A stretch of 64,000 nt of DNA from Halococcus sediminicola (GTDB lineage Archaea > Halobacteriota > Halobacteria > Halobacteriales > Halococcaceae), in assembly GCF_000755245.1 (NCBI RefSeq), contig NZ_BBMP01000006.1:62001-126000 (forward strand), written 5' to 3'. Made by a program: the position numbers and the translations under genes. Shown here in pieces: positions 1 to 26,621 of this stretch; position 1 is the first letter of the stretch; the number at the start of each line of letters is the position of its first letter. The notes under the pieces are model-generated. The model saw nothing but the letters and a program-made list of their open reading frames with translations, did not search any database and was not told the DNA's origin.

Positions 1-65
1 AACACCCAACTTTTCTTTTTCTATTTCCAAAGATTTCTTTGTCCGCAGAACGTAGCTCTGACACA

Positions 66-323
66 ATGAGAAAAGATGAATCCCTCCAGATTCACGCATT
101 GCTCCGTGCCCTGAAACAGCACGTAGAGCACGAGCACGGGATCAGTGAGGAAGCATTCGACGAGTACGAAGAACTGGATGTGAAGCCGGAGCACGTCTAC
201 AAGAACAAAGGCAAGCACCAGGAGGCAGTTATGCTGCTATCCAAGAAGATCGCTGACGAGCTCGCCAAGGAAGGCAGCTACAGCCCAGACGAAGAAGAGG
301 AACGGGAACCAATTCCAGCGTAG
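66..323 (+). CDS. UPF0058 family small protein
   Basis: Predicted 85-residue acidic protein. It opens with MRKDESLQIHALL and contains FDEYEELDVKP..VYKNKGKHQEAV, a pattern I recognise from the haloarchaeal UPF0058 family of small proteins of unknown function. The ATG at 66 is preferred because the family begins with this methionine; a TTG at 39 would add nine atypical residues. It ends three bases before the end of the convergent HEPN gene. The role is unknown; some members are annotated as metal-binding, which I cannot confirm here. Confidence 0.75.
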   Translation: MRKDESLQIHALLRALKQHVEHEHGISEEAFDEYEELDVKPEHVYKNKGKHQEAVMLLSKKIADELAKEGSYSPDEEEEREPIPA

Positions 324-326
324 TGA

Positions 327-1208
327 TCAGGGATTACTATCTTCGTCAAACGCATCCGGTAGAACGTAGTCGTTAAAGATCGTGTAGAGTTCCAGTAACG
401 AACTTCTGAGGATATGGATGTCTTGGTCCAGTGATTTTCCGCGATGAGCTATGTTATTGCGGACCTGGTAGTAATAGTGAATTGCCTGCTCTGGGTCGAT
501 AGTCGACAGTTCTTTGGTTTCTTCGGGTTTGTGTGTTTTCCGGATGATAGCACCGTCTCGATGTTCTAAGACGTCTTCAAGTCCTTCTCTGAAACCATCT
601 TCCTCTATAGCCATCCTTTTTCGTTCATGATAGCTATTGGCTCCAAACCCGTACCTAAGTGTCACATACCGTTCTATTACAGTCCAAAGAAGAAGGTACG
701 CCATCTGTAACTCGAAATATGAGCTGAAGTCGTTGTCTTCAGCCCGTGTGTGCTGCTTTATTTTCTCCTCGACCACATCGAGTGCTTCGTTGAAGAATGG
801 GTCGTTCTTTTCGCCATCCCAGTCTTGTATGGGACTTCCGGAGTGGTCTTCCAGTTTGTGGCCGCCGTTCTTAGGGTTGATACCGACTAAGATGTTCGCG
901 TTGTACTCAGTGTCATCTGCCGTAGCAGTGGTTTGCGTACATCTGTACTGGTTGCCTGGTTCTATCTGCGTGATTTTCATGTACGCTCTTTCGGCGTCCT
1001 CTGGGTTGAACCAGAGTAATACTCCGTTGGTTCGTCCGTCTTTCTCTGTGTTCAGTAGAGGTATGCCATCTCTTTCGTAGAGTGGGTGGTCTACGCTGGC
1101 TGTTTTGGTGTCGTCAATGAAGTCCTCTAGTCTGAAATGGGCGATCTGGCCGGGTTTGAAGATGCCGTAGGTGAAGAAGGGGCGTTGGAGATTAGAGGGT
1201 CGATCCAT
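327..1208 (-). CDS. HEPN-domain protein (putative RNase or defence effector)
   Basis: 293 residues. The C-terminal third has the features of a HEPN fold: a helical LLLWTVIERYVTLRYG segment followed by YYYQVRNNIAHRGK, which holds the Rx4H motif (R250, H255) used by HEPN RNases. The N-terminal ~150 residues mix beta-rich stretches and I do not recognise them. HEPN proteins commonly act as toxins or abortive-infection RNases; that role here is inference from the motif and the mobile-element setting. It converges on the UPF0058 gene and is divergent from the surface-protein operon at 1438. Base composition is more AT-rich than the chromosomal backbone. Confidence 0.65.
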   Translation of the reverse strand: MDRPSNLQRPFFTYGIFKPGQIAHFRLEDFIDDTKTASVDHPLYERDGIPLLNTEKDGRTNGVLLWFNPEDAERAYMKITQIEPGNQYRCTQTTATADDTEYNANILVGINPKNGGHKLEDHSGSPIQDWDGEKNDPFFNEALDVVEEKIKQHTRAEDNDFSSYFELQMAYLLLWTVIERYVTLRYGFGANSYHERKRMAIEEDGFREGLEDVLEHRDGAIIRKTHKPEETKELSTIDPEQAIHYYYQVRNNIAHRGKSLDQDIHILRSSLLELYTIFNDYVLPDAFDEDSNP

Positions 1209-1437
1209 TGTACCGATCTCATAACGGTGGATGGATGTCTAAAGCTTTGCTCCGGTTCGATTGAAACCGCTGGTGCGTCTTCTGTTCAGCTGGACTGGCA
1301 GTAGAGCCGTTCATTGTATTCGACCACATGTATTTTAAGACAGCTAATCAAACTATTCTTCATGTTGTCAACTAGTTTTAGATCGGTTAGAAGCGGCGTT
1401 GAAAACCCGGATTTGAGGGATGGAGGTGTGGCATGAG
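1209..1437. promoter_or_regulatory. Divergent promoter region of the surface-protein operon
   Basis: 229 bases between the divergent HEPN and surface-protein genes. A TATA-like stretch TATTTTAAG lies near 1330, so any transcript toward the operon would carry a leader of roughly 80 bases. This agrees with a strong Shine-Dalgarno match GGAGGTG at 1422-1428. An imperfect inverted repeat (GGTT...AACC) lies near 1253-1267. Confidence 0.4.
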
Positions 1438-3072
1438 GTGCGAGCCAAACGTTTTGCAGCAGCTTTCCTTGTCCTCGGTTTGGTAGCGGCCTTCACCGGA
1501 ACAGCACTTGCTTCAGAAACATATACGTACAATAACGTAACCGACCAGCAGGAAAGCACCCATCAAATATCACAGGGCTATCCAGAGGGGCAGGTCATTC
1601 AGATGAACTCTGATGCTATCTTAAAATCGGTCGATCTTTTTGACGCATCTGAGAATGGCTACAATATTCGAGTTCACAGTTACAATGACAACAATGACAC
1701 TCTCGGCTCCAAATTAGCAGAAACTACTGCAGGGTCAGATAAAGCATACTTCGATGTGCTTCTGAAATCTGGCAAAAAATATGCGATAACTCAGAACGGT
1801 GGCGGCATGGGAGAAGCAAGCGGCTCATTCCCTCTAAGCTACGACTTAGTATCCATACAAAAGCCCTACAGCTATTCCGGATCTCATAGTGACAGCTACA
1901 TTGCGTTCCATGCGCTGACGTTTGAACTTCCTAACACAAAACCCTCGATTATAGATACCGACTATGAGCCTCAGAACCCGCAGCAAAGCGACACAGTATA
2001 TCTGAAAGCCAACGTCTCCGACCCAGACCAGAACCTGGACACAGTGACAGCGACAGTCACCGAATCAGGGAACACAGTTCTCAACAACGTGGAGATGACC
2101 CTGAACAACGGACTGTACGAAGCCTCATTCAACGTCACAAAGGAGAACAAGACCTACACAGTAACCTACACCGCCACAGACACCAAAGGCGCAACAGACA
2201 CCACACAGGAGACAATCGCCGTCCCGCTCAACAACGACGACCCAGAACTCGGCAACCTGAGCAGGACACCAAAAGAACCGAAGATCTACGACTCACTCAG
2301 CTTCTCCGCTGACGCAACAGATAGTGACACCAACCTCGCCGGACTCAACTTCACACTAACACGGAACGGCAAAGAAGTGGTCCACCGCGAACTATCCGGC
2401 AGCGGAATCTACGACCTCAACGATATCGCAACTGCAGAACCCGGCAGCTACACAGCGAAATACGTCGCCTACGACGCCAAAGGCTCCACAGACACCAAGA
2501 CACAATCATTCACGGTAGCCGACCCAACCACAGGCGTCAGCATCACACTCCGCGACGCACCCAGTACACAGAGCTTCAGCAGCATCCAGAGCAGCGACAG
2601 CACCAACATCACCGTCGAAAACGGGACTGTCAAAGAGGACGGGACGGACGCAACCTACATGACACAGCAGATCAACAGCGATCAGTTCGATCTGGCCGCA
2701 GTCCACATGTCCGGCACCGGAACGCTCGACGTCGAGAACCTGACCGGTAACGAAACCACAGCGATCACACAGAGCCTCGTGAGTGGAGCGAACACGGTCG
2801 ACCTCTCCAGCCTCGACACCGAGAAAATCCGGCTCAAAGTCAAGCTGGACTCCGATTCAGGGATCACGGGCCTGCAGGTGTACGGAGAGGATTACAGCGG
2901 TGGCTGGTTCGGCGGTATTGTCGGACCGACCGGCGGCTTCCTATCGAATGTACCGGTCTTCGGCGAGTTCCTGAACGGAGTCGCCACAGGGATCAGCAAC
3001 GCAGTGAACGCTGTGCTCTCAGTTCCGCAGCAGATGCTTGAAGGAATACTTGAGGTGTTACCGACCCTGTGA
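1438..3072 (+). CDS. Secreted Ig-like surface (spike-like) protein
   Basis: 544 residues if translation begins at the GTG at 1438. That start has GGAGGTG at 1422-1428, nine bases upstream, whereas an ATG at 1420 would overlap this ribosome-binding site. The N-terminus is a signal peptide (RAKRF, then a hydrophobic run ending TALAS). Two Ig/fibronectin-like repeats of about 90 residues follow in the middle (shared pattern SDPDxNLDTVTATV / TDSDTNLAGLNFTL and a YTATDTKGATDT / YVAYDAKGSTDT end). The C-terminus is Gly-rich and amphipathic rather than a clear membrane anchor. It begins a four-gene overlapping operon. Position and architecture resemble the spike gene of pleolipoviruses, but a plasmid-vesicle or cell-surface protein is also possible. 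Confidence 0.6.
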   Translation: MRAKRFAAAFLVLGLVAAFTGTALASETYTYNNVTDQQESTHQISQGYPEGQVIQMNSDAILKSVDLFDASENGYNIRVHSYNDNNDTLGSKLAETTAGSDKAYFDVLLKSGKKYAITQNGGGMGEASGSFPLSYDLVSIQKPYSYSGSHSDSYIAFHALTFELPNTKPSIIDTDYEPQNPQQSDTVYLKANVSDPDQNLDTVTATVTESGNTVLNNVEMTLNNGLYEASFNVTKENKTYTVTYTATDTKGATDTTQETIAVPLNNDDPELGNLSRTPKEPKIYDSLSFSADATDSDTNLAGLNFTLTRNGKEVVHRELSGSGIYDLNDIATAEPGSYTAKYVAYDAKGSTDTKTQSFTVADPTTGVSITLRDAPSTQSFSSIQSSDSTNITVENGTVKEDGTDATYMTQQINSDQFDLAAVHMSGTGTLDVENLTGNETTAITQSLVSGANTVDLSSLDTEKIRLKVKLDSDSGITGLQVYGEDYSGGWFGGIVGPTGGFLSNVPVFGEFLNGVATGISNAVNAVLSVPQQMLEGILEVLPTL

Positions 3073-3611
3073 ACACGGATGCGGTCAAAACCTTCTACCT
3101 CCTTCTCATCTTCATCTCCACCGTTTCTGTAACCTCTGCCGCCTCACCGTCTTCCCCTGATTCTACGAACCAGACCGGACCAGCAGGAAACCCGGTCGAA
3201 CTCGAATGGAGAGACGGCACCCTGCTCTACCAGCCCAACTGGACCAGCAACGGAGCCACATTCACCTTCGAATCCAAGATACCGACATCACTAACAATAG
3301 TAGACATGAACAGTATCGGCGACAGTGGTAGCGGAGACGTCGCCACCAAAACAATACGACTGACGCCTAACGAGCAGAAAACCGTGCAGATGGATCTGAA
3401 TAATGAAGCCGGTTCACTGGGCGTCACCATATCGAACGGAAAACAGATGAAATACACCTCAAACCCTCAAAAACCTCTCTTCGAACAGATCTTCCGATGG
3501 ATGCTCTACGCACCAATGATAATCATGCCAATCGAGATCGCCGCAGGCACAATCGGAATTATCTGGGCACGGAAGAGAAACCTCAAGAAAAAACCAGTAC
3601 AGGTAGTGTGA
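3069..3611 (+). CDS. Secreted or membrane protein with C-terminal transmembrane helix
   Basis: 180 residues. It starts at a GTG that overlaps the stop codon of the preceding gene by four bases (GTGA), with GAGGTG at 3051-3056 as a likely ribosome-binding site. A signal peptide (FYLLLIFISTVSVTSA) is followed by a beta-rich extracellular domain and, near residues 140-165, a transmembrane helix (MLYAPMIIMPIEIAAGTIGIIW). A short Lys/Arg-rich tail (RKRNLKKKP) is presumably cytoplasmic. The topology suggests a small partner of the surface protein. No family is recognised from the sequence alone; it would occupy the ORF6-like place in a pleolipovirus-type gene order. Confidence 0.55.
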   Translation: MNTDAVKTFYLLLIFISTVSVTSAASPSSPDSTNQTGPAGNPVELEWRDGTLLYQPNWTSNGATFTFESKIPTSLTIVDMNSIGDSGSGDVATKTIRLTPNEQKTVQMDLNNEAGSLGVTISNGKQMKYTSNPQKPLFEQIFRWMLYAPMIIMPIEIAAGTIGIIWARKRNLKKKPVQVV

Positions 3612-3620
3612 GAACCAGTA

Positions 3621-4418
3621 GTGAAAACAGAACAGATAGAACTCAAACGAGACGCAGAAACACGATCCGACAAAATCCTTCGGCTGGCGATAGCCTACAA
3701 GAACTGGGTAGGGGCCTTCGTCGTTCTATTCGCCATCGGAATCCTGATGCGGTGGATTGTGATACCGCTCGGCATCCCCAGCTGGGCAGCGATCATCGCA
3801 ATCCTCTCAGCCATCTGCGCAGCACCCTCATATCTCACAGCAAAATGGCTCGCTGACAAATTCTACGAACCAGATGTCGACTTCATGGTCGAACTTGATG
3901 GCGCATCGAAACACGCAGTCCGCGTCTACAAACAATTGAAAGGCGAATTCCTGAAACAGTACGAGAAGAAACAGCAAGAGCAGACGTGGACCAACGAACT
4001 CTCGAAGAACGTCTACATGTTCAGAGACATCGACCATGACGAGAAGGTCGCAACCGGAAACTACCCTACGGAAACTCCTGACGTTGAACTCCTACGAGAT
4101 CGGGAGCGGATAGACGCTCAGCGCTGGGAGAACAACAAATGGGTGCGCGTCGGCTGGAAACTGTTTGCCCGGTTCGAAGCCATCGAAGATAACGTCAAAG
4201 GCCGGTACTTCAAGAGCCTGGTCCGAGAGGGAATCGAGCGCAAAGCCCACAACCCCGACGAACTGCTGGCAGAGATCGAAAACGACATCGAGGAACTCAA
4301 AGAAAAGAGCGAGGAGGGAGACAGGGAGAAGCTTCAAGATATCATCAACAATGCAGACCCCGGTATCGAGATGAAAGACATCGATATAGACCAACTGCAG
4401 GGTGACAAGGAGCGGTGA
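3621..4418 (+). CDS. Membrane protein with two helices and a long charged C-terminal domain
   Basis: 265 residues. After a charged N-terminus, two hydrophobic helices are visible at about residues 28-50 and 53-75 (VGAFVVLFAIGILMRWIVI and SWAAIIAILSAICAAPSYL). A cytoplasmic domain rich in Glu/Lys follows, with probable coiled coil at 100-125 and 215-250. It lies nine bases after the previous gene and overlaps the ATPase gene by four bases, so it is probably translated with it. A membrane protein directly before an ATPase matches the ORF7-VP8 order of pleolipoviruses; its role in assembly is inferred. Confidence 0.55.
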   Translation: MKTEQIELKRDAETRSDKILRLAIAYKNWVGAFVVLFAIGILMRWIVIPLGIPSWAAIIAILSAICAAPSYLTAKWLADKFYEPDVDFMVELDGASKHAVRVYKQLKGEFLKQYEKKQQEQTWTNELSKNVYMFRDIDHDEKVATGNYPTETPDVELLRDRERIDAQRWENNKWVRVGWKLFARFEAIEDNVKGRYFKSLVREGIERKAHNPDELLAEIENDIEELKEKSEEGDREKLQDIINNADPGIEMKDIDIDQLQGDKER

Positions 4419-5515
4419 GTGATAATCAGCGCTGGGTGGCCGCTGAGTTCCGTGAAGCCCTGCTGCGCGGCGATATACCTGCACTGAAAGAAGCTGGCCT
4501 GCTCGACCAACAGGATATCAACTGGTTGCTCTCGTTCAAGCAGTCTGTACCCGAGGCAGAGGAAACCGACCGCTACGAAGAAGAACTGGAGAAAGCTGTC
4601 TCGAAGAAAGTCAGCAAAGCAGTGAAAAACGGGAATATCAGCGTGATGGCGCACGGCACGGGCGTGAACTCGCAGCGCGTGGAAGCCACTGGGTACGAAC
4701 GCCTTGTGAACGCGATCAAACCTGCCGCCCACCAGATCCTGATCAAAGGTCCGAAGGGCAGTGGAAAATCCACGAAAGCCGTCGACCTGGTAAAGCAGCT
4801 GCACGACGAGTTCGACGGCGATCTCAAGATTATGACCAACATCAAGGGGCCTGACGAACATGAGGCCGTCCGGTTCGGTGAGACGATGTCCGAGTTCCTT
4901 GAGTTTGCGAAGGAAGACGGTGAAAAGGTGATTATCGGCGACGAGTTCTCAACCGTTGCGAACGAGTGGACTGGCGGCAGCGATGTCAAGGACCAGTTCG
5001 GACGAGCGATCAATGCCCTACGTAAGTCCGAGGGTGGCTCTACACGCCTGATTATCATCGGTCACGAGCACGATACGGATGTGGCGAAGATTCTGCGTGT
5101 GCAGTCTGATGTAGTGATACGAGCGGATGGGAAGAAGCGCGAAGGAATGATTGACAAATTAACTGTATTTGAGAGTTGGAATGACTACAAGAATCACCAA
5201 GACTGGTTCCGCGTGCGTGGGATGCGCGATATACCGCAGGATTCGCCGTGGAGCTTTGACGACAAGTACTTCGCCCACTTCGAGTTCGACCTGGACAACC
5301 CTGAGAAGCAGATCGAGCGCGGGAAGCTGATTGATGACTGGGAGAAGTACCAGGAAGAGGATGCTGAGGATGATACGCCGGATTACAAGCGTATCAGATG
5401 CCGTGGTGAGAACAAGACTGGTGAGCGATGTGGCTCACTCACAGATCATGAAACAGGTTACTGCCCGGTTCACCGTGAACAAGGAGATGGCAGTATTGAT
5501 CCCCGCCGTGAATGA
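4415..5515 (+). CDS. P-loop ATPase with C-terminal zinc knuckle (VP8-like)
   Basis: 366 residues. A clear Walker A, GPKGSGKS, is at residues 112-119, and a Walker B-like KVIIGDEF ends at D176-E177. GHEHDTDVAKILR may be a sensor region. The last 45 residues hold CRGENKTGERCGS...GYCPVH, a putative C-C-C-H zinc site. The GTG start overlaps the preceding stop. ATPases in this position in pleolipoviruses are of unproven function (VP8-type NTPase); packaging or conjugation-like DNA handling are alternatives. This is the last gene of the four-gene operon. Confidence 0.6.
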   Translation: MSDNQRWVAAEFREALLRGDIPALKEAGLLDQQDINWLLSFKQSVPEAEETDRYEEELEKAVSKKVSKAVKNGNISVMAHGTGVNSQRVEATGYERLVNAIKPAAHQILIKGPKGSGKSTKAVDLVKQLHDEFDGDLKIMTNIKGPDEHEAVRFGETMSEFLEFAKEDGEKVIIGDEFSTVANEWTGGSDVKDQFGRAINALRKSEGGSTRLIIIGHEHDTDVAKILRVQSDVVIRADGKKREGMIDKLTVFESWNDYKNHQDWFRVRGMRDIPQDSPWSFDDKYFAHFEFDLDNPEKQIERGKLIDDWEKYQEEDAEDDTPDYKRIRCRGENKTGERCGSLTDHETGYCPVHREQGDGSIDPRRE

Positions 5516-5797: not shown

Positions 5798-7132
5798 CTA
5801 TCCGTTATCGGAGTCATCTCCAAACTTGATACGAGGCCTTGCTCTCATTGAATAGAACCGGTCGAACGAATCATTCTCAGAACCAAGAAGCTGATTTCGT
5901 AGAATCCGCTTCAGCAGGACAAGAGTCACTTCTTGCATCTCAATCAATTCACCTGTAGACACATGAGGATCACCATGAGAAACGTAGTTCCTTCCAGGAC
6001 TCCAGAAATATGCCGGTGTATCCAATTCATCCACGTCTGGAACAACCTGCGAAGCTAAATCCTCCGTCTCTACATCAAGCTTATCAACCAAATGCTCTAT
6101 TTTCGGCCCAGTTGATGTAGACACCTCATCCTCCTGTGCGTGCTTGAGCGCAAGTAACTCGATTGCACTACATGTGCTCAACATCTTACCCTCAACTGGC
6201 CGGTCCGGATCTCTTGCATCGATATAGTACCCGAGTACCTGACGGACCCGAAGATCATCGCGTACACGAGGAGTATAGTTCTCATAGGCTTGTTTGACAT
6301 ACTCTGGAAAATCACCCCGGAGTACATGATCTGGAAATGAGCTAAATCGTCCGCCGACATTCGCCGTACTCCCTGTTTTCAGCAGTTCATAATGAACATC
6401 GAGATCATCAACTGAGATTCCGTCCATAGAGATAATCTTTGCTCGGATTAACCGAGGTGCTGTCTCTTGGATCAGCTGAGATATTTCGAGAACCTTATGA
6501 ACTGATTCTTTCGCCATTTCAACCTGATGAGCGAGATCGCCATGAATCCGCTGCTTAACACGGATTTTCCCGGTCCGGACTGGTCGACGATGCTCTTCGA
6601 TTGCTTCTGTTCTTTCTTTCGTATCTGTAAGCGGGACTCCATATATGGCTCTCTCATCAGATTCGGTATACCGGATTTCGATTTCTTTAGGGATGTCAAC
6701 ATCAGAATTGTTCTGGTTAGAGATTTGTTGAAACATATTCCGCGTTTCGGTGTCGACTTCATTCCTTGGCGGTATCTCTGGTTGAAAGCATACAACATCA
6801 AATTCGACTACAACCTCGATCTGTTTGTCCGGAGCATGATCCGGATCTTGAGTCAGAGAAACCGTGTCACCATTGATTGAGAGCAGCGAGCAATCGTGGA
6901 TATCTCCAGCTCTTACCCTTTCCATATGGACGTCGTATCCTCTTTTGTCGACACCCTCAACCGAGGCCCAAGAGCTGTAAATATCTGTAAACGGATGTAC
7001 GACTCCTTCTTCGAACTCAATTCGTAGATTTCCGCCCTCAGATAGGATAATCCGACCTGTATACGGGTCATCGCCTTCCCCGAGTTCGAGTTCACACGGT
7101 ATTTCGAGGAAAGTTTCATTTGGTCCGACCAT
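5798..7132 (-). CDS. HEPN-domain protein resembling ApeA-type defence proteins
   Basis: 444 residues. The N-terminal ~220 residues are beta-rich, with spaced glycines (YTGRIILSEGGNLRIEF, LLSINGDTVSL). The C-terminal ~130 residues are helical and include a SAIELLALKHAQ helix and GRNYVSHGDP, an Rx4H motif (R381, H386) typical of HEPN RNases. This two-part layout resembles ApeA-like abortive-infection proteins, but I cannot confirm membership without a profile search. It lies between the virion-like operon and the serine recombinase and reads opposite to both. Its start at 7132 lies about 40 bases from an AT-rich divergent promoter zone. Confidence 0.5.
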   Translation of the reverse strand: MVGPNETFLEIPCELELGEGDDPYTGRIILSEGGNLRIEFEEGVVHPFTDIYSSWASVEGVDKRGYDVHMERVRAGDIHDCSLLSINGDTVSLTQDPDHAPDKQIEVVVEFDVVCFQPEIPPRNEVDTETRNMFQQISNQNNSDVDIPKEIEIRYTESDERAIYGVPLTDTKERTEAIEEHRRPVRTGKIRVKQRIHGDLAHQVEMAKESVHKVLEISQLIQETAPRLIRAKIISMDGISVDDLDVHYELLKTGSTANVGGRFSSFPDHVLRGDFPEYVKQAYENYTPRVRDDLRVRQVLGYYIDARDPDRPVEGKMLSTCSAIELLALKHAQEDEVSTSTGPKIEHLVDKLDVETEDLASQVVPDVDELDTPAYFWSPGRNYVSHGDPHVSTGELIEMQEVTLVLLKRILRNQLLGSENDSFDRFYSMRARPRIKFGDDSDNG

Positions 7133-7260
7133 ATCCTTAACCCGGATTTTCGCCCGGACTACTTAGTAACTCTGTGAACTCGATCTTGCAGAACCCGGAA
7201 CTTCCGAAATGGATCATCGAGAAACAACTGTTTTCGGACAACCTTCGAGAACCCCTGTTC

Positions 7261-7267
7261 TTTATAA
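7261..7267 (+). promoter_or_regulatory. TATA-like box of the serine recombinase
   Basis: TTTATAA centred 27 bases before the ATG at 7291. This spacing suits a leaderless haloarchaeal transcript and supports the choice of 7291 over an in-frame upstream start at 7174. Confidence 0.5.
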
Positions 7268-7290
7268 GTAAACTTGTGGCATTCAGAAGC

Positions 7291-8055
7291 ATGGGTTTGA
7301 CCGCTATTTATGTCCGAGTTTCTACTACCAAGCAGTCAAATGATCGCCAGCTGGAAGAGTGTCAGAAAGAAGTCGAAGGTGAGCACGAAATCTATGCCGA
7401 TATCGGCTCCGGGTCCAAACCAAACCGAGATGATATCCAGAGACTGATCGAAGATATCGAAGCCGGGGAAGTCGATAGGGTAGTATGCTGGGAGATCTCC
7501 AGAATCGGGAGAAAACTCAGCTTCGTCTCACAGTTCATAGATCTCTGTACAGAGGAAGGCGTCGAACTCGACACAGTCAACGACATGTTCCCCGGAATCA
7601 GGCCCGGCAACGACATCTTCGATAACATGATCAACCAGCTGATGGCCTGGATGATGGAGTTCGAGCGCGAAATGATCAGAGAGCGTGTGCAATCCGGCGT
7701 CAACAAGGCAATTGACGAAGGAAAATGGGTGGGTAGACCGCCCTACGGCTTCACGACAAACGATGATGGCTATCTTCAAATCAAGTCGGAGGACTATCTT
7801 GCTATGCAGCAAGCGGTCGAACGAGTCGTCCTAACGGATGAATCTGTGAACAGCACCGCCACTGCGTTCAGTGTTCCCACCTCCAGCCTTCACACTATCG
7901 TAAATGACGAAAATAAAACGGAGCTGTATCTCTATGGTGCTCACGACGATAGACGACTAGCACACGCTGTTGATGAAGGAGATATTGGTCAGAAGGGTGA
8001 ACTCAATCGTCTTAAAAATCGACTGAGTGACCTAGAAGATTCTGTACAGAGATAG
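7291..8055 (+). CDS. Serine recombinase (resolvase/invertase family)
   Basis: 254 residues from the ATG at 7291. The resolvase catalytic domain is clear: AIYVRVSTTKQ with the nucleophilic Ser11, a regularly spaced R-rich core (VCWEISRIGRKLSF), and MEFEREMIRERVQSGVNKA, the long E helix. A degenerate DNA-binding helix-turn-helix follows (VNSTATAFSVPTSSLHTIV), then a short coiled coil. The size fits small resolvases rather than large serine integrases. It lies about 100 bases before a tRNA-like attachment scar, so it may resolve or integrate the element to its left. Confidence 0.85.
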   Translation: MGLTAIYVRVSTTKQSNDRQLEECQKEVEGEHEIYADIGSGSKPNRDDIQRLIEDIEAGEVDRVVCWEISRIGRKLSFVSQFIDLCTEEGVELDTVNDMFPGIRPGNDIFDNMINQLMAWMMEFEREMIRERVQSGVNKAIDEGKWVGRPPYGFTTNDDGYLQIKSEDYLAMQQAVERVVLTDESVNSTATAFSVPTSSLHTIVNDENKTELYLYGAHDDRRLAHAVDEGDIGQKGELNRLKNRLSDLEDSVQR

Positions 8056-10560: not shown

Positions 10561-10784
10561 TGGGGTCCGCAGGTTAGACCAGTTTGCATTGAATGTTTAA
10601 ATCCGCTCGACACAAGGTTTACTAGCCTAGCAATCGTCCAATTCTCTGATGGCGCTTGGTGCCAAAGGTATGGCCTCGGTACTCATAGGGATCGTCATCA
10701 CCGGGTGTCGAGTCCGACTCGGGACCGCGACTCGTCATCGGCCAGCGGTCCGTTGTCGGCCCAGTCGAAAAAGCATACCTCTAC

Positions 10785-12800: not shown

Positions 12801-13418
12801 CTACCCCAGGAGACCGTTCAGGGTGATGGCGACGAACAGGAGGAGGACCACCTCGCTGACGATCCAGGAGTTCGTGTTCATCCAGTCCCGGATCTTCGGG
12901 AGGGCGACCTCCGCACGCTCTCCGAGCGCTACTACGGCGAGTGAGGGGAGTGCCAGCAACAGCAGCGTGACGAGGACGAACGGGATCGCGTCCGTCAGCG
13001 GGGAGTCGTGGGCGGCGAGATAAGAACCGACGGTGACGGACGTGATGACGTCGGTCGGGAAGAATCCAAGCAGCAGGAAGCCGAGTCGGAGCGAGAATCG
13101 CGGCGTGGCCGCCTGGAGTTTCCCCATCCACTTCGGGGGTTCGGACTGCTCGCGCTTCAAGAACGTGCGGACCATGGCGATCAGAAGGAGCACGAGGATG
13201 ACGAAGTGGACTGTGTCCCCCGAAAAGCCCTGGCCGATAGCACCACCCCCGAGGAAGAACGCAGCGGCGACCACGAGGGAGATCGAGAGCGCCGCGCCCA
13301 GCACGAAGGCGGTAGAATTGCGCTGCCACCCCTCGCTCGTGGCGAGGAAGATGGCGCTCAGGATCTGTGGGCCGGAGATCATCACGAGCACCAAGGGGAG
13401 AACCGTGAGGAAACTCAC
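12801..13418 (-). CDS. GAP/Sap-family six-helix membrane protein
   Basis: 205 residues with six hydrophobic segments. The opening FLTVLPLVLVMISGPQILSAIFLATSEG and the internal GFFPTDVITSVTVGSYLA resemble the GAP (Sap, sulfolipid-1-addressing) family of LysE-like exporters. The transported substrate is unknown. It converges with the permease gene and ends 41 bases from it. Family assignment is from overall pattern. Confidence 0.6.
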   Translation of the reverse strand: MSFLTVLPLVLVMISGPQILSAIFLATSEGWQRNSTAFVLGAALSISLVVAAAFFLGGGAIGQGFSGDTVHFVILVLLLIAMVRTFLKREQSEPPKWMGKLQAATPRFSLRLGFLLLGFFPTDVITSVTVGSYLAAHDSPLTDAIPFVLVTLLLLALPSLAVVALGERAEVALPKIRDWMNTNSWIVSEVVLLLFVAITLNGLLG

Positions 13419-13620
13419 GACGGACTCCCGCGTCGCCAGCGGTCGACGGTCGACGCGACTGCCCTCGATACGTGGACCATGCGAACCAGCACGTCGTCAT
13501 GGATAATCTAGATGTTCCACTAGTTTCCTGAATTTACGGATATTTGTACTTTCCCCGAACGGAGGGCCGAACAGTCACTTTCCGGTTCGAGGACGGCGGA
13601 ACTCGACGCGGCTCGTCAAG

Positions 13621-14286
13621 CTACCGTGTCAGTCTGGCGTCGAGCCGTGCGGCCAACTGGTCCGAGATGTCTGTGAGATGTGCCGTCGCGAAGATCGCGA
13701 CGAGGACGCCACCGGCGATATCGTAGAAGAGGTCGAGCATGGTGTCCTCGAGACCGTACTGGGTGAGGACCTCCGCAGTGCCGAACGCCCGCGACGCCGC
13801 GCCGATGGAGAACTCCAGAAGTTCCCAGACGACGCCGAAGGAGACGATGAACAGGAGGAGGTAGACGAACGTGAACGCCGGCGGCATGGCGACGTACTCG
13901 GTGTGCTCTTCGAGCGCGCGCGTCGTCGCGTAGGCCACGCCCGCGACCAGCGAGGACGACAGCGCGTGCGTGACGTGATCGTACCACCAGAGCGAGCTGT
14001 AGGCGCTCGCGAAGTCGAAAAACGGCAGCGGGACCGTGCCCACGGCGTGGAGGAACATCGCGGTCGTGATCCAGAGCACGATGCCGGCGTCCATCGTGAG
14101 CGTGTAGCGGCGTTCGAGCACCGCGGGCAGGAACGTGACCGCGAGTCCGACGCCCGCGTTGACGACGAGACCGGCGTTGCCCGAAAGCGCCCCGACGAGG
14201 ACGATCCCCACCAGCACCAACTGCATCAGTCGTGCCAACTGCGCCTGTCGAGTGGGCGAGATACCGAGACGACGACGGAGTCTCAC
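13621..14286 (-). CDS. Polytopic membrane protein, DUF2238/YjdF-like
   Basis: 221 residues from a GTG at 14286 that overlaps the stop of the upstream membrane-protein gene (GTGA). Six hydrophobic segments. WWYDHVTHALSSSLVAG, VSFGVVWELLEFSIG and DTMLDLFYDIAGGVLVA carry the conserved His, Glu and Asp residues of the YjdF-like integral membrane family. Function is unknown. It forms a two-gene operon with 14283-14885. Confidence 0.6.
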   Translation of the reverse strand: MRLRRRLGISPTRQAQLARLMQLVLVGIVLVGALSGNAGLVVNAGVGLAVTFLPAVLERRYTLTMDAGIVLWITTAMFLHAVGTVPLPFFDFASAYSSLWWYDHVTHALSSSLVAGVAYATTRALEEHTEYVAMPPAFTFVYLLLFIVSFGVVWELLEFSIGAASRAFGTAEVLTQYGLEDTMLDLFYDIAGGVLVAIFATAHLTDISDQLAARLDARLTR

Positions 14287-14885
14287 GCGAGCTCTCCCGT
14301 GGGTCGTTGGGTCGCGTTCTCGCGCAGTCGCCGCCGGAAATACCACGCGAACACGCCGGCGGCGACGAGTCCGGCGACGAGTGTGCGGGCGAAAAACAGC
14401 ATCAGTTCCGTGTTCGTCGTGAAAAACACCGTCCCACCGAGATAGGTCGCCGCAGCCCACGAGCCGAACGCCCAGATGCCGGCGACGCCGAGCGTGGTGA
14501 TGACCGCAAACCAGACCGCGAAACCGGGCGTCATACGGACCGTCGTGGTCAACTGGAGTGCGACCACCACGAGCAGCGCGAGCGTGGCGACGGCGATGCT
14601 TCGCACGAAGCCGGCGACGAGCACGAGTCCCGCGGCGTTCAGCGCGAACGGGGCCACGGTGAGCGCGAGCAGCGGCCACGGAATCGTCCGCGTCCACGAC
14701 CCCGCGACCCACGCCGGAACGACGGCGACCGCGACCGCGACGCCCGCACCGACCGCCGTCACGGGTTCGCCGGCGAGGAGGTTGCCGACGGCAGTCAGCG
14801 CGAGGACGGCCACGAACAGCCACGCGATGGCGGCGTTCGTCCGCGCGTCCTTGATAAACCACTCTTCGGGAAGTTGCTGGCTCAT
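14283..14885 (-). CDS. Polytopic membrane protein, unknown
   Basis: 200 residues with about six hydrophobic segments and no recognisable catalytic motif. It begins MSQQLPEEWFIKDARTN and ends with an Arg-rich cytoplasmic tail (FRRRLREN). It is translationally coupled to the downstream YjdF-like gene by a GTGA overlap, so the two probably work together. It is divergent from the DUF1269 gene across an AT-rich promoter region (14,920-14,970). Confidence 0.6.
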   Translation of the reverse strand: MSQQLPEEWFIKDARTNAAIAWLFVAVLALTAVGNLLAGEPVTAVGAGVAVAVAVVPAWVAGSWTRTIPWPLLALTVAPFALNAAGLVLVAGFVRSIAVATLALLVVVALQLTTTVRMTPGFAVWFAVITTLGVAGIWAFGSWAAATYLGGTVFFTTNTELMLFFARTLVAGLVAAGVFAWYFRRRLRENATQRPTGELA

Positions 14886-15001
14886 TGCCTGTACTCCGGC
14901 GGCGCAGAAATATAACCTGATCTACAGTTACATATGTATGTGCATATATGAAAGCACAGATACAGTTATGTCGGTAGCGTTCGTGTGAACCGTCGAACAG
15001 C

Positions 15002-15499
15002 ATGAACGAACTGATCGTACTCGCATTCGACACCGAAGACGGCGCATTGAACGTCAGGGACAAGTTGAACGACCTCCAGAAACAGGGACTCATCACGCTG
15101 AGTGACGCGGCGGTCGTCGTCCGGAAGGGCGACGGCAAGCCGAAGGTCAAACAGGCCCAGAGCCTCGTCGGCGCGGGCGCGCTCGGCGGGAGTTTCTGGG
15201 GGCTGCTGATCGGACTCATCTTCTTCGCGCCCATCCTCGGGATGGCCGTCGGCGCGGTCACCGGTGCGCTCTCGGGTCGGTTCGCCGACATCGGGGTGGA
15301 CGACGACTTCATCGAGGAGGTCGGCGACACCATCGAGCCGGGCCACTCCGCGCTCTTCTTGCTCGTGGTCGAGGCACAGACCGACCGCGTCATCGACGAG
15401 ATCGAATCGTACAACCCGACCGTGCTCCGGACGAACCTCTCGGCCGAGGACGAGGAAAGCCTGCGCGAAGCGTTCGCCGCCGACGACATCACCGCCTGA
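15002..15499 (+). CDS. DUF1269 family membrane-associated protein
   Basis: 165 residues. The opening MNELIVLAFDTEDGALNVRDKL, the central glycine-rich hydrophobic hairpin (GAGALGGSFWGLLIGLIFFAPILGMAVGAVTG, cited in part) and the C-terminal ALFLLVVEAQTDRVIDEI are typical of DUF1269. The family is often linked to stress conditions, but its activity is unknown. The gene is monocistronic, divergent from 14885. Confidence 0.8.
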   Translation: MNELIVLAFDTEDGALNVRDKLNDLQKQGLITLSDAAVVVRKGDGKPKVKQAQSLVGAGALGGSFWGLLIGLIFFAPILGMAVGAVTGALSGRFADIGVDDDFIEEVGDTIEPGHSALFLLVVEAQTDRVIDEIESYNPTVLRTNLSAEDEESLREAFAADDITA

Positions 15500-15746
15500 G
15501 CGACGCAGTTCATTCCTATCGACGTATGTTCTCGTAGTCATTTTCGGTCGTTCCACCGGACGGGACGCCACTCTCGGGATCGCTGTGTGAGGGTACAATC
15601 GACCCGAATCCATACCGGCCTGCCAATCGCCCGGGTCAGACGCCCGTCGATCCTCGAAGCGAGGTTCCTCGATCTCGTCCATCGGGTCGAAACCGAAATC
15701 GAATCGTCGGGTCCACCCGCGACTACACCACTCGCATCGCACCCGC

Positions 15747-18700
15747 CTACTCCCCGACCGCATCCTCCACGATCTCGATTTCCTCGTCGGTCAATCCGTA
15801 CAGCTCGTAGACGATTTGGTCGATCAACTCGTCGGTGCGCTCGATTTTCGCGTCAAGTTCCGCGGCGCGCTCGCTGGCATCCACGTAGCGCTCGATGCCA
15901 CCCTCGACGTCGGCGAGTTTCGGCAGGGTCAGACTCTCCAGCCTGTCGAGCGGCGAGATCGTCGCGGTGGCGTTGTCCCGATAGCCCGCGAAGCCACCGG
16001 CCTCCGCGACCGCGTGGGGCACGAACGCCTCGACGAGCGCGGCCTCGGCCTCACTCAACCCGACGAACTCCATCGCCGGCACGGGGTCGAGTGTGGCGTA
16101 TCCCCGACTATTCGTCTCGTACTCGTCGGGATTTTCGGGCTTCACATACGGAACCGCCAGCACCCGCAGGTGGTCGCCATCGCGCTCGATTCGCGCCGCC
16201 GTCACCCGGAGTGTTGCGAACTCGCTGTCGGCTTGGGTGTCGGTCAGCACCGACTCGTGAAGGCCGCTCGCCGGCTGATAGCGCTCCCCCAGGGGCGGAC
16301 CATCCGCGTACGTGCCGAGGTAATCGAGGAGATCGAGGTTGAGACCCCGTCTCTTTTCCGAATCAGCCATTCTTTGATTACATAGTTCATTAACAAAATC
16401 GTGTGTGTATTTTGTGCGCTCACAAAGTTCATCTGGCAATTCGAGACCATTTTCAATATGGATTAGATCATATAGAATTTCTTCGAAAGAACTCGGAGCA
16501 GTGTGCTCTGAATCCTTGAAGTTAATTTCTGGAAGGGGTAGCTCTTCTACATCGTCAAGTGAGATTCTAGGAAATGAATCCGCGATGATTTTGTTGGATG
16601 TTCTGATGAAGTACCAAGACAGAAGTGAAGAATTGAGAATAGCTGTCAAGAATTGGTTGCTATACTCCGACACAGATACGATACTCAGTGTAGTCTTGTA
16701 TCCAACAAAGTCTCTATCTGTATAGGCTGCGTGTATTCTGTACTTTCCCGAATCAGTTATTTCACGGAGGACTACTCGCTCTCCCTTGAAATATTTCGAC
16801 TCTCTAGGTCGGTGTAGATGATTTCCATAGTCAACATAATTATTGCCATTCAAATTTACTGAATAGCGTGAGATATCGGTTCCGGTCGCTAACGGTAGGT
16901 GATTTTCTGTTCTCTTTTCGTTGGAATGAAAAACACGATTCTCAATTTGTTCATTTGTATGATCACTTTGTCCGTAAGCCTGAATGCCGATGGAGACGTC
17001 GGAGACAGAGCCAAATCGAACTGAGATGGAATTGATCTTCTCAATTAGCGCTATTTCATCGGATGATTGGCGTATTTCAATTCTATAATCGTCATCGTCA
17101 ACAAGATCGTCTCGTTTTCCGGTTCTCCTCTCGGTTATTCCGATGATTGAGTCGCCGACATTATGAGCAGATAGAATCGACATCTCACCTCGCGTTTTAT
17201 CCTTTGTCAGTAACATGATAATCGTGTCAACGGTGGCACCGTTAAAAACACGATTGTCGAAATCTACGATAGACCGTGGCAAACCGTTCTCAATCACATA
17301 CTTTCGAAGTAGAGATGTATTCTCAAGTGTCAACCATTGCTTCGGAATGATATACCCAAACTCTCCATCATTTCGCAGACGATTGATTGCTTGCTCTATG
17401 AACGCATGAAATAGGTCTATTTTGAATTGTGTAGATGAAAAACCTTGTTTCAGATACTTCTTCATAGTTGATTTGGCTTGGACATACGGCGGATTGCCGA
17501 CAACGGCATCGAAGCCCGCACTCGCCAGTCGGTCGCCGTCCATGTCGAAGAAGACCGCGGGGAATTCGAGTTCCCAGTGGAAAAAGCCCTCCTCGTCGGC
17601 CATCGCGCGGGCCGCACGGAACCAGTCGGTTGCTTCGAGGGCGGCCCACTCCTCGTCGTCCTCGATGGCGCGGGCCATGCGCTCGATGGCGTCCTCGGGC
17701 ACGTCGAGACCGAATTCACTGGCTGTGTGGACCGTCGCCATCGCCTGCAGGTGCTCGTAGAGCGGGTCCTCGCGCATCTCGGCGTAGATCGCCTTCATCG
17801 AGTGGATCTCGTCGAGGGTTTCGTTGTCGATGGCGAGCAACTCGCTCATCCGATTCATCACGTGGTCGAGCGCCCGTCGTCGCACCTGCTCGAAGTAGTC
17901 GAACGTCGATTGCACGGTCCCGTTCTCCTCGTTCTCGCTCGTGAGTTCGTCGCCGTCGTCGTTCGAGAGCACCTCGGTGATGTCCGACCCGACCAGGGAA
18001 TTGCCCGCCTTGAGGTGGTGGTCGAGGAAGGCGAGCGGTTGGTCCGCCGCGAGCGTTTCGAGCCACATCGAGAGTTTGGCCAACTCGGTGGCCATGCCGT
18101 TCACGTCCACGCCATAGATGCACTCGCGCGAGATCCGCCGCCGAATGTCGCTGTCGTCCTCGTCGTCGAACGCCTCGACGTTCTCGTCGACCTCCCGCAC
18201 CTCCTCCATCAACGCGTTCGTGAGATAGGCCGTCGCCTTCGTCAGGAAGTGCCCGCTACCCATCGCCGGGTCCAGAATCTTGAGGTCGGTCACGCGCTCC
18301 CAGAAGGCGACCACGTACTCCTCGGTGCCCGGCTCCAGTCCCGAAAGCTCCGCCTCGATGTCTGAAAGCAGCGGCCCGACGGTCTCCTCGACGATGTACG
18401 TCACCACGTAGTCGGGCGTGTAGTACGCCCCCGTGGCCTTGCGCTCGCCGTCGTCGTTCACCACGTAGAGTTCACCCTGTTCGACCGTCTCGACGGCCTC
18501 GGCCACACTCACCTCGTCTGCGGGCTTCCAGACCTGTCCCCCATCGCCCGCGACGGCGGCCTGCGCTTCGGGCGCGACAGCAAATTCGTGTTCGAGCAGT
18601 CCCTCGTAGATCGTCCCCAGATGGCGCGTATCGAGGTCGGCGTAGTCCGCGGCGACGTGGCCCTCGTCGGTCTCGGTCGTCGAGAGTCGATAGATCACCT

Positions 18701-18776
18701 CCGCGAGATGGCGATCCGACACCTCGTTTGCGGCGAGGAATTCGTGACTCTCCTCGTCGAACAGCCCGCCATTGTA
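15747..18776 (-). pseudogene. Type IIG restriction-modification gene, C-terminal (methylase/specificity) part, split by an element
   Basis: C-terminal two thirds of an Eco57I-like Type IIG enzyme. Frame runs from the junction TAC-AAT-GGC-GGG-CTG (18776 downward; YNGGLF) and includes an internal GTG at 18722 that could start a 991-residue protein. From that GTG: SAM-binding motif I DPAMGSGHF at 151-159, catalytic NPPY at 410-413, then a region expected to hold target recognition, and a C-terminal helical tail (SERAAELDAKIERTDELIDQIV). The missing N-terminal part lies at 28653-29780. Residues ~420-790 are strikingly AT-rich relative to both flanks. A separate methylase could still be made if a promoter at the element edge reads this way. 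Confidence 0.85.
18765..18776. other. Left attachment site of the integrative element
   Basis: CCCGCCATTGTA, identical to 28659-28670. On the minus strand this encodes the codons TAC AAT GGC GGG of the Type IIG motif YNGG. Sequence to the left is restriction-gene coding; sequence to the right is element DNA. Confidence 0.85.
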
Positions 18777-18800
18777 AGTTCCTGACTAAAGAAACACTCA

Positions 18801-18806
18801 TTATAA
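18801..18806. promoter_or_regulatory. Palindromic TATA-like box at the left edge of the element
   Basis: TTATAA reads the same on both strands. Rightward it lies about 38 bases before the RHH gene start; leftward it lies about 28 bases before the attachment site and could drive the methylase half of the split restriction gene. Confidence 0.35.
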
Positions 18807-18840
18807 CCGGCCCCGTTTGTCCGACTTGAGGGAAAGCACA

Positions 18841-19434
18841 ATGGCAAACAGCAACCGTGTATTAGTCAATCTACAAGTTGACGACGGACAGAGAGAACGA
18901 TGGAAAGTATACGCCGACGACTCGCCCGAACATGACTCACTTTCCCAACTCATTCGGTTCGCCGTCGAACGTGAGATAGGAAGTAGCAACATGACTCAGG
19001 GGAGCGATGGACTCGGCGACGGTGCAAGCGAACAACTCGCCGAACTCCGCGAAGAGAATCGACAACTCCGGGCAAAGATCGATGGACTCGCCGAGAGTGT
19101 AGAACGGATAGACGACAGGCTGGCTGAGCCGAGTGGGGAGATCAGGGAACTCGCGTCTGATATCTTCGAGGTGTTGCCAGAACGTGATTTGGTGGTCGAT
19201 GAGCAAGGTAATCCACGACTGTCTCATGGGTTCGGACTCCCTGACGACCAGAACAAGGTACATGAAGGAACACCCGAAGCCGTCGCCGAGAATATGGGCA
19301 TAGACGACTATCAGGCCCTACGTGCGCTCGATTTGCTTGAGAGAGACATGAGCATGGTCGAGAAGGGTGTTGTGTACGATGACGGTGTGACTCGATACTA
19401 CCTCGATGAAGCTCACTACGAGGAGAACCGATGA
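18841..19434 (+). CDS. Ribbon-helix-helix-like DNA-binding protein with coiled coil
   Basis: 197 residues from the ATG at 18841. The N-terminus RVLVNLQVDDGQRERWKVYA..SLSQLIRFAVEREI has the strand-helix-helix pattern of ribbon-helix-helix proteins. A coiled coil follows (LAELREENRQLRAKIDGL, about 70-100). The C-terminal ~80 residues look like a winged-helix module with GVVYDDGVTRYYL as the wing. The last four bases overlap the integrase start (ATGA), so the two are co-translated. A recombination directionality factor or integrase regulator is the natural inference. Confidence 0.6.
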   Translation: MANSNRVLVNLQVDDGQRERWKVYADDSPEHDSLSQLIRFAVEREIGSSNMTQGSDGLGDGASEQLAELREENRQLRAKIDGLAESVERIDDRLAEPSGEIRELASDIFEVLPERDLVVDEQGNPRLSHGFGLPDDQNKVHEGTPEAVAENMGIDDYQALRALDLLERDMSMVEKGVVYDDGVTRYYLDEAHYEENR

Positions 19435-20408
19435 GTCCAGCGATCACCCAGTACGAACCCTCTCCGTCGGTTGAGGCATTCCTACGGCGAGAAAAAGGTA
19501 TCAATGCAGAACAAACATGGAAAAACCGACGCACAGACCTCAAAGACTTTGAGCAGTGGTGGAGAGAGAACAACGGCGACGATATTATTCATGCTCGGCC
19601 ACTCGACATTGAGCCATTCTTTTTCGAGCGGGCGGACGATGGATACGCTGCGAAAACGATCAAAAGCCGATACAACTCACTGAGCGCGTTCTACCGATAT
19701 CTCTCCCAAAAGCGGGAGCTAATCGAAGAGTCGCCGTTTGAGAGCATGGATCGGAAAGACTACAACCGATTCATGAGCGGCACGAAAAAGTCGGAAATAA
19801 CACGGGATAAAATCTCCTACGTTACGACCGAACAAGCCGAACAGCTTGCCGAGAATGTGGCGAACCCACGACTCAGGAACGAACTCCTAATCAAACTCGC
19901 GTTTCAGACGGGGTTACGAGAGGGCGAACTCGCCTCGATAGAACTCAGTGACATCGACAGGGACGATCGGAGCATCAAGATTCGGGCGGAGAAAACCCAT
20001 GAAAATCGAACAGTGTACTACCAACCCTCCCTCGATATGTTGCTACAGCAGTGGATAAACGGGGGATACCGAGATTCGTATTCGAAAGCGGGCGAATCGC
20101 AATATCTGTTCCTGTCGATCCATGCCCCGAAGCTCGAAAGCGCGAGAGTGAACAAGGTTGTCAAACAAGCCGCCGAGAACGCTGGTATCCAAGAGACGAT
20201 GTACGTGGATATGGCCGGAAACGAACGGAAAAAGATCACATCTCACGCTCTGAGGCACGGCCACGCGGTCGAGAGTCTAAAATCTGGTATCGACGTTCGT
20301 ACCGTTCAGAAACACCTCGGCCACGCAGAACTCGATATGACGATGCGCTACCTTCAATTGATTGAGGACGATGTGAAACAGTCCTACCAACAGTTCGGGA
20401 GTCGGTGA
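19431..20408 (+). CDS. Tyrosine recombinase (integrase) of the element
   Basis: 325 residues. An N-terminal SAM-like core-binding domain occupies about 1-100 and a catalytic domain the rest. Catalytic residues visible: R163 in TGLREGEL, H272 and R275 in SHALRHGHA, H298 in KHLGHAELD and nucleophile Y307 in MTMRYLQL. The gene lies at the left edge of the inserted element beside its attachment site, and is presumably the enzyme that recombined CCCGCCATTGTA. It overlaps the upstream RHH-like gene. Confidence 0.9.
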   Translation: MSPAITQYEPSPSVEAFLRREKGINAEQTWKNRRTDLKDFEQWWRENNGDDIIHARPLDIEPFFFERADDGYAAKTIKSRYNSLSAFYRYLSQKRELIEESPFESMDRKDYNRFMSGTKKSEITRDKISYVTTEQAEQLAENVANPRLRNELLIKLAFQTGLREGELASIELSDIDRDDRSIKIRAEKTHENRTVYYQPSLDMLLQQWINGGYRDSYSKAGESQYLFLSIHAPKLESARVNKVVKQAAENAGIQETMYVDMAGNERKKITSHALRHGHAVESLKSGIDVRTVQKHLGHAELDMTMRYLQLIEDDVKQSYQQFGSR

Positions 20409-20925
20409 ACCACACTCCCCACCCTCAGAAGCCCGCTACGCCGTTTCACCCCCAATGCATCCCTTACCACTCAAAGAACATCCGCACCTCATACGGGACG
20501 AACTGTGGCCTCCTACGCGACCCTACGATGGACTGTGACGACAGGGCTTTGAGTAGAATCCGGATTGAACCGCAATTCTACTCGGTATATAGATACACCT
20601 CCTCTGGGAGGGTACAGATTTATATATTTGTAGAACCTATCTACACGCTAATGGGTCGATGGCTCAGAACTTGGTTAGCGGCGGCAGAGTCAGAGACGTG
20701 TCTATCCTATGTAGTCGAGCAGATCACACAGACGGCTCTCTCATTTCTTTTCTTGATGGTGAGGGAAAACGCACAGAGCGACTTTAGGTGTTGGACGCAC
20801 CGTGAAGGCGGAATATTGCAGTGTTGCAGGTTGGGATATGGGTCAACCAGCTAACTCTACGCTGCCGAAGGATATTAACCTTTCGGTTAGATTCATGTCC
20901 CATCTGCATACGTTATTTGTAACAG
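20409..20925. other. Intergenic region with operator-like inverted repeat
   Basis: 517 bases between integrase and replication gene. Codon usage of the open frames here is poor and none resembles a protein. TAACC (20876-20880), TTTC, GGTTA (20885-20889) forms a short inverted repeat about 40 bases before the replication-gene start, a reasonable place for an operator. An AT-rich stretch near 20,585-20,635 (TATATAGATACAC, TTTATATATTTG) could be a promoter or an origin-unwinding element. Confidence 0.4.
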
Positions 20926-22698: not shown

Positions 22699-22782
22699 CT
22701 CCGATTCTCTACCGGATAATAGTACTACGGTAATGGGTGGGGTAGGTTACTCGACTTCCTTCCCCTCCGTTCGCCACTCGAT

Positions 22783-23628
22783 CTACTCAGACTCTCGCTG
22801 TTCGTCTCGAAGCTTGATGGTATCAGAATCTTTGTCGAAATCGACTATGCCACAATCCGACAGTATATCCATTTCGATGCGGATCATGGCTGGTTTTTTA
22901 TTTGAAAGTCTCGATAATTGGTCAACAGAAAGATTTCCAAAGCGCTCTATGCGGTTCAGATATTGCTTTCTCTGATATGAATCAAGAATGGCAGGTAGTT
23001 GACGACGAATGCTTGTGGCAACACCTTCGATATCGCTAATATCGTCGCTCATTGAGGAGATTTCTTCTGTGATTTTTTCCTCGTACGATTCTTCTACCCA
23101 CTCATACGAGTCCTTGCCTCTCCCCCAAATCGACTCCTCAATGTCTATACTCTCATTGAAATTATGGTTTATGTCAAATATATCCGCACAGTTTGCCTCG
23201 AAATTGAGCACCCATCCGTCATCTGGAAGAACTTCTTCAAGTCTATTAATTCCCGACATAGGAACATCATCTTCCGTCGTGATTATGAATCGGTGTTTTT
23301 CTCCGGGTGGTATCAGTGGAATATTCCATGTTCGCTTCTTGTCTTCGTTACTGAGCATCCATTCGGCGCTCACATTGTGGGCAGCACCGTTGCCAGTGTT
23401 TTGGATAGCGAAAAAGTATTCGGCGAAATTGGGGTGCTCAATAGTCGGCTTCAAGTATGGCTTAGACATTGAGCTTGTCTGCGCCTTCATCGCATCAATC
23501 TGATTACTGGTAGCTTCACTTTGACGATGGGTATAATAGGTATATACGACAGTTGCAATCAGGAGTCCAAGTGCAAAGATCGCTTGCGCTGCTGAAGCAA
23601 GGAGTTGCAGTTGATCGTTTGTCACCAT
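22783..23628 (-). CDS. Membrane-anchored protein, unknown
   Basis: 281 residues. An N-terminal transmembrane helix (residues 10-30, LASAAQAIFALGLLIATVVYTYY) is followed by a coiled linker (SEATSNQIDAMKAQT). A beta-sandwich-like domain comes next (YFFAIQNTGNGAAHNVSAEW, typical of a NEW-like fold). The cytoplasmic end, about 205-281, has the look of a winged helix (LSVDQLSRLSNKKPAMIRIEMDILSDCGIV). I do not recognise a named family. It reads opposite to the replication gene and its coding sequence is AT-rich. A sensor or superinfection-exclusion role would be speculation. Confidence 0.5.
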   Translation of the reverse strand: MVTNDQLQLLASAAQAIFALGLLIATVVYTYYTHRQSEATSNQIDAMKAQTSSMSKPYLKPTIEHPNFAEYFFAIQNTGNGAAHNVSAEWMLSNEDKKRTWNIPLIPPGEKHRFIITTEDDVPMSGINRLEEVLPDDGWVLNFEANCADIFDINHNFNESIDIEESIWGRGKDSYEWVEESYEEKITEEISSMSDDISDIEGVATSIRRQLPAILDSYQRKQYLNRIERFGNLSVDQLSRLSNKKPAMIRIEMDILSDCGIVDFDKDSDTIKLRDEQRESE

Positions 23629-25900: not shown

Positions 25901-25951
25901 TTGGTTAGCGTCCTTACGTTTCGAATGGTAATAACTCACTATGTCTCTCAA

Positions 25952-26597: not shown

Positions 26598-26621
26598 GAA
26601 GCATGACATAGAGAGCTTGCT

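Follow-up and report, generated by a model that had tools for sequence, protein, structure and literature searches.

What kind of mobile element carries the run of virus-like genes at the left end of a 64,000-nucleotide stretch of the Halococcus sediminicola genome? The stretch (the window) is positions 62001–126000 of contig NZ_BBMP01000006.1 (C6). A preliminary description, made from its letters, had pointed to four coupled genes for an Ig-like surface protein, two membrane proteins and a P-loop ATPase, arranged as in pleolipoviruses but with no VP3-like or replication gene in view. It proposed a divergent membrane virus, a satellite or a plasmid that makes vesicles. We consider it probable that the genes belong to an integrative, plasmid-like element of ~64 kb, which carries a complete, mosaic pleolipovirus virion module and is inserted at the 3′ end of the sR-tMet guide RNA gene. 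Insertion was most likely through the element's own tyrosine integrase. Gene identities, island borders, an empty site and a second element of the same plan are established from the sequences. Features are listed in Table 1; the left flank is L035, and window positions equal L035 positions minus 12000.

The four genes, P0001–P0004, are co-oriented and closely packed. P0001 and P0002 overlap by 4 nt (3069–3072), as do P0003 and P0004 (4415–4418), and P0002 and P0003 are separated by 9 nt. Open reading frames (ORFs) and profiles bear out the four products, the pleolipovirus likeness and the serine recombinase that follows. The first gene is present, although the start at 1438 is internal to its ORF, which begins at 1420. 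P0002, P0003 and P0004 match the reference ORF6-like, ORF7-like and NTPase families. By tblastn, P0004 also matches SNJ2 (9e-8) and HRPV-3 (2e-3). The PHROG and tblastn matches together place the block beyond chance. The predicted structural model of P0004 is poor, with a mean predicted local distance difference test (pLDDT) score of 39.9.

Leftward extension, which the preliminary description had itself suggested, recovered a VP3-like gene and the spike gene. P0007, P0006 and P0005 all lie within 3.3 kb of the window edge, and P0005 ends 76 bases from it. The apparent lack of a VP3-like gene was thus an artefact of the window edge, as P0007 starts ~3.3 kb to its left. The Ig-like protein P0001 had been taken for the spike; the actual spike is P0005. 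P0001 was rejected for that role with an hhalign probability of 0.1% against spikes. P0005 matches the spikes of Halfgib1, His2, HFPV-1 and HGPV-1 by tblastn, and its family profile matches the solved VP5 spikes 6qgi, 6j7v and 6qgl at 4.9e-42 to 6.7e-30.

Family membership was assessed using hhalign with two-sequence alignments (the window protein and a close relative) against alignments of reference virus proteins only, a design chosen because iterative searches may drift. Probabilities ranged from 91.8% for the VP3-like protein to 99.8% for the spike. Negative controls (mismatched families, and P0001 against spikes) gave at most 0.5%. By these profile comparisons, none of the five core pleolipovirus families is missing. 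The VP3-like identity of P0007 is the least certain of the five; as a single sequence it matched the reference VP3-like profile at only E=0.012. The core order of VP3-like, spike, ORF6-like, ORF7-like and NTPase genes is kept in the island. Genes inserted in the block stretch it to 7.07 kb, counted from the start of the spike gene to the NTPase end. A published screen asks for four core genes no more than 4.5 kb apart (PMC10599561); this spacing is a screening rule and no taxonomic criterion, and whether the 7.07-kb block fits it hinges on how the rule is read.

The block lies in a low-GC island with defined ends. Between C6:~8.5 kb and ~72.7 kb, GC content is ~0.44–0.57, against ~0.65 in the DNA around it, and it rises from about 0.49 to above 0.63 at the right attachment site (att). 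The ends carry a 20-bp direct repeat (19/20 identical) with only two copies in 126 kb, and the right copy overlaps the 3′ end of an intact sR-tMet gene. In the congeners G044, G073 and G323, DNA of the island's left flank is found near sR-tMet, on its other side (e.g., 80% identity over 548 bp, 1e-140), and in G323 the match begins ~125 bp from the att core. The uninterrupted site in these three congeners indicates that ~64.2 kb was inserted.

Other island genes encode restriction-modification proteins, SIR2, a histone and an IS605-type transposase. The matches listed for 39 island proteins include no capsid or tail genes, and their "terminase" PHROG matches are HerA-type ATPases. No rolling-circle replication (RCR) endonuclease, HRPV-3 ORF9 or type B polymerase was found by BLASTP against reference genomes or in Pfam and PHROG searches of island proteins (best 25 of 35 PHROG families). 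The reported lack of a replication gene therefore stands for recognised pleolipovirus Rep proteins; the same island does encode a TOPRIM primase. Of the features of integrative and conjugative elements (ICEs), the island has an integrase and att repeats at an RNA gene, and its HerA/DUF87 ATPases would be candidates for a conjugation role; no relaxase was recognised. A search of PLSDB detected no relative of the NTPase or spike.

Table 1. Features of the island and its virion module. Unprefixed positions are in the window.
Feature	Position	Strand	Description and evidence
Left att	C6:8471-8490		53.5 kb left of window; partner copy of 20-bp repeat
Accessory gene	C6:8565-9059		164 aa; adjoins left att
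Tyrosine integrase	C6:9062-10084		Island left end; Pfam 5.3e-20
TOPRIM primase	C6:32186-35692		About 27-30 kb upstream
DUF87/HerA ATPase	C6:36795-38141		Among the DUF87/HerA ATPases of the island
P0007, VP3-like	L035:8723-9205	+	160 aa; four transmembrane (TM) segments; hhalign 91.8%
P0006	L035:9166-10452	+	428 aa; secreted; beside spike; C-terminal similarity to P0001
P0005, spike	L035:10449-11924	+	491 aa; signal peptide and C-terminal TM; phrog_2231 4e-49; hhalign 99.8%
UPF0058 protein	39..323	+	Between spike and P0001; Pfam PF01893 4.5e-18
293-aa protein	327..1208	-	Interrupts virion block on opposite strand; weakly HEPN-like (only Pfam HEPN_RiboL-PSP, E=0.086)
P0001, Ig-like surface protein	1420..3072	+	550 aa; secreted, signal peptide; P0006 paralogue; Big_9 0.0025, below cut-off
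P0002, ORF6-like (HRPV-1 numbering)	3069..3611	+	180 aa; signal and C-terminal TM; phrog_1938 1.5e-9; hhalign 98.4%, 7e-15
P0003, pleolipovirus ORF7-like	3621..4418	+	265 aa; two N-terminal TMs; phrog_5952 1.3e-10; hhalign 96.8%, 2.4e-10
P0004, pleolipovirus NTPase (ORF8-like)	4415..5515	+	366 aa; P-loop; Cys/His-rich C-terminal tail; phrog_1979 7e-36; hhalign 99.7%
444-aa backbone gene	5798..7132	-	Also in virion-module-free G026 element (26% over 382 aa, 1e-20)
Serine recombinase	7174..8055	+	293 aa; small, resolvase/invertase type; Pfam Resolvase 5.9e-34; 52.5% to G295 block-side recombinase
Right att	10668..10687	.	20-bp direct repeat, 19/20; overlaps sR-tMet 3′ end
sR-tMet C/D guide RNA gene	10672..10743	-	Integration target, intact; Rfam RF02163, 67.6 bits, full model

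A second element of the same plan was found in G295, a genome of another haloarchaeal family. It is a low-GC region of ~65.2 kb (C1:4235215 to 5449, across the contig origin), bounded by an exact 18-bp repeat with sR-tMet at the far end. The contig was taken as circular, an assumption supported by an ORF and the low-GC region spanning its ends. The G295 element has the same target and carries a full virion block. Homologues shared with the window island include the integrase (52%, 4e-98), accessory protein (42%), HerA (38.5%), a DUF932-like protein (38%), serine recombinase, spike (33.7%) and ORF7-like protein (37%). It differs in a WD40-headed surface protein and in an NTPase of another clade, only 28% identical. 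The window NTPase is instead ~51% identical to those of proviruses in Halobiforma and Halopiger. In FastTree trees rooted at the midpoint, it falls in the Halobiforma/Halopiger clade, whereas the ORF7-like protein groups with G295 (0.89 support). Judged from these trees and identities, the module is a mosaic. The G295 chromosome has a second, separate pleolipovirus-like block (C1:971000-991000, L052). At 13 proviral loci (L037–L048 and L053), a fusion of the ORF6-like and ORF7-like genes yields a single ORF of 446–501 aa. Two checked examples have four hydrophobic segments, and the fused forms make up a monophyletic group in the tree of ORF7-like proteins.

P0001 and P0006 share a C-terminal domain, the last ~177 aa of P0001 (42% over 177 aa, 5e-44). 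Ig-like strands are predicted at P0001 residues 177–268 in a low-confidence model (mean pLDDT of 42.9). Across 391 genomes of the class, the C-terminal domain was found elsewhere only in the spike-adjacent protein of G295, where the N-terminal half is a WD40 propeller. At L050 and L051, a pair of secreted PKD/Ig proteins with related domains adjoins a pleolipovirus spike; the L050 pair, upstream of the spike, is encoded at 14178-16709 (-, 843 aa) and 13014-13874 (-, 286 aa). Accessory surface proteins beside the spike thus recur. The idea that the serine recombinase inverts the surface-protein genes is unsupported, since no inverted repeats were found flanking P0001 or P0006. A 28-bp stretch, 89% identical between window 2911-2938 and L035:11772-11799, encodes GGIVGPTG near the C-termini of P0001 and P0005. 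Also set aside was a 55-kb plasmid of Natronorubrum that encodes a PD40 protein; it has a WD40-like stretch in common with G295 and nothing in common with the window island.

Among known viruses, the betapleolipoviruses SNJ2 and HRPV-3 and their relatives HGPV-1, HFPV-1 and His2 share the five homologous core genes, and their order, with the island. SNJ2 is likewise integrative; its target is a tRNA-Met gene (PMC5867852), and that of the island is the sR-tMet guide RNA gene. The island integrase has no significant BLASTP match to the SNJ2 type. Unlike SNJ2 and HRPV-3, the island has a block split by a 3.1-kb stretch and two extra surface proteins. It is without a recognised Beta-type Rep, Gamma-type polymerase or Alpha-type RCR protein.

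The island integrase family was detected in 45 of 391 sampled haloarchaeal genomes and appears to use the sR-tMet 3′ end (e.g., L153 13981-14050). G017 has a short low-GC remnant whose end falls exactly at sR-tMet. Elements at sR-tMet in G026, G239 and G004 encode a homologous integrase (79%), accessory protein (63–66%), and DUF6610, DUF932-like and HerA homologues. BLASTP detected no pleolipovirus genes in the 80 kb analysed per element. The G026 element also carries Cdc6, FtsK and VirB4-type genes. The 444-aa gene right of the NTPase is found in G026 too, so the module has backbone genes to its left and to its right. Neither a second integrase nor a third att copy nor bordering repeats were detected around it, and no unit smaller than 64 kb could be delimited. 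Flanking backbone genes and the lack of such repeats favour acquisition of the module by a plasmid-like element. The G004 element has three predicted tRNA genes (L162 5171-5886).

Several observations weigh against a ~64-kb virion-module carrier. The unit is far above pleolipovirus genome sizes, which span about 7–17 kb (PMC5867852) and average 10.4 kb for isolates and 13.5 kb for complete genomes (PMC10599561). A wider range of about 7–19 kb also holds for pleolipovirus genomes, with Harhisp1, from the phage collection, at 19.5 kb. Pleolipovirus genes occur within 80 kb of the integrase only in G000 and G295 (2/45), from coordinates compared by hand and limited by contig breaks. The window integrase is nearer those of module-free elements (74–79%) than that of G295 (52–55%). 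Given this low co-occurrence and these closer module-free integrases, module and carrier need not travel together. The G295 block is inverted relative to the element ends, compared with the window. In IMG/VR, neither the NTPase, singly or as an alignment, nor the spike matched a viral contig, although such scans need near-exact peptides and are no proof of absence.

By analogy with known pleolipoviruses, the integrated element would excise and replicate. VP3-like and spike proteins would collect in the cell membrane, from which particles would bud, and the whole island may be their cargo. By a rough estimate, 64.2 kb of DNA (64.2 kb x 0.34 nm x pi nm2, or about 6.9e4 nm3) packed at 25–50% would need an inner diameter of about 64–81 nm, which would put such particles close to or beyond the upper end of the 50–100 nm range known for these viruses. 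The NTPase and the ORF6- and ORF7-like proteins may aid assembly or DNA loading. The spike would bind the S-layer of a new cell and fuse the membranes. P0001 and P0006 may be accessory adhesins, exchangeable heads on a common C-terminal base. A bolder form of this proposal is that a family of ~64–65 kb sR-tMet-specific integrative plasmids took over the virion module as transfer machinery, bears surface proteins with exchangeable Ig-like or WD40 heads and is transmitted intact in large membrane particles. We regard that form as conceivable, with the odds somewhat against it.

The strongest rival is a small pleolipovirus provirus nested in an unrelated integrative plasmid or ICE, which would leave alone, perhaps via the serine recombinase, and package only ~10–15 kb. 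Typical pleolipovirus sizes and the existence of module-free elements with similar integrases speak for it, and the patchy distribution of the module keeps it in play. A serine recombinase lies beside the block in both the window and G295, and a related one is downstream of the block at four other loci. However, the 293-aa recombinase is a small resolvase/invertase type and not a large serine integrase, and no integrase, att copy or repeats of the module's own were found. Block and homologous backbone are also found at the same target in two diverged elements. We judge nesting the less likely arrangement, at perhaps one chance in a handful.

A decaying or domesticated remnant, whose virion genes no longer make particles, is doubtful. 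The UPF0058 and opposite-strand genes interrupt the block between spike and P0001, and the transposase gene in the island would suit decay. Against this, the module ORFs are all uninterrupted at 26–52% identity to relatives, which indicates past purifying selection, and the 4-nt overlaps are kept.

A plasmid-vesicle element of the pR1SE type (apHPV) is quite improbable. Like the pR1SE-like plasmids, the island is plasmid-sized DNA with membrane-particle genes and ATPases of the HerA/VirB4 type, here DUF87/HerA. The variable heads of P0001, P0006 and the G295 protein (Ig-like, WD40) on a conserved C-terminus also resemble the described pR1SE ORF6 (PMC10818511). However, no S8 peptidase (apHPV core gene ORF7) was found among 39 island proteins (E<=1e-9), and the island's virion genes are pleolipovirus homologues. 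The suggested vesicle-making plasmid comes close in that the carrier, at 64 kb, is integrative and plasmid-like, although it is no typical pR1SE type; the suggested satellite gained no specific support. Chromosomal secretion or pilus genes unrelated to viruses, the outcome named beforehand as refuting a viral block, were themselves refuted, as the weak T2SSE and AAA matches (Pfam) of the ATPase score far below the pleolipovirus profiles and the genes lie in a mobile island absent from congeners.

A second low-GC stretch is present at window 15747-29864. By eye, methyltransferase-like pieces were recognised at 15747-18722 (-) and 28653-29864 (-); between them lie a tyrosine integrase (19431-20408) and a primase-like protein of 590 aa (20926-22698). 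The arrangement suggests that a further mobile element lies within or next to a restriction-modification gene.

The block itself is of a known, pleolipovirus kind. It differs in its 64–65 kb plasmid-like, sR-tMet-specific carrier, in being split and in having extra surface proteins. At that size, the carrier exceeds several-fold every pleolipovirus found in the open-access literature, where no paper linking sR-tMet with an integrase was found. Because a split block may escape screens that need close core genes, such carriers may be under-counted. The sR-tMet guide RNA gene appears to be a chromosomal entry point for elements with this widespread integrase. Pleolipoviruses are thought to arise and diversify by recombination with plasmids (PMC10599561), and pR1SE shows that membrane particles can serve as vehicles for plasmids. 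With a plasmid-like backbone and a complete virion module in a single integrative element, the link between plasmids and pleolipoviruses becomes directly testable in one strain. If the whole element is transferred, it would be a plasmid-virus intermediate at a scale undescribed for pleolipoviruses in the open-access literature.

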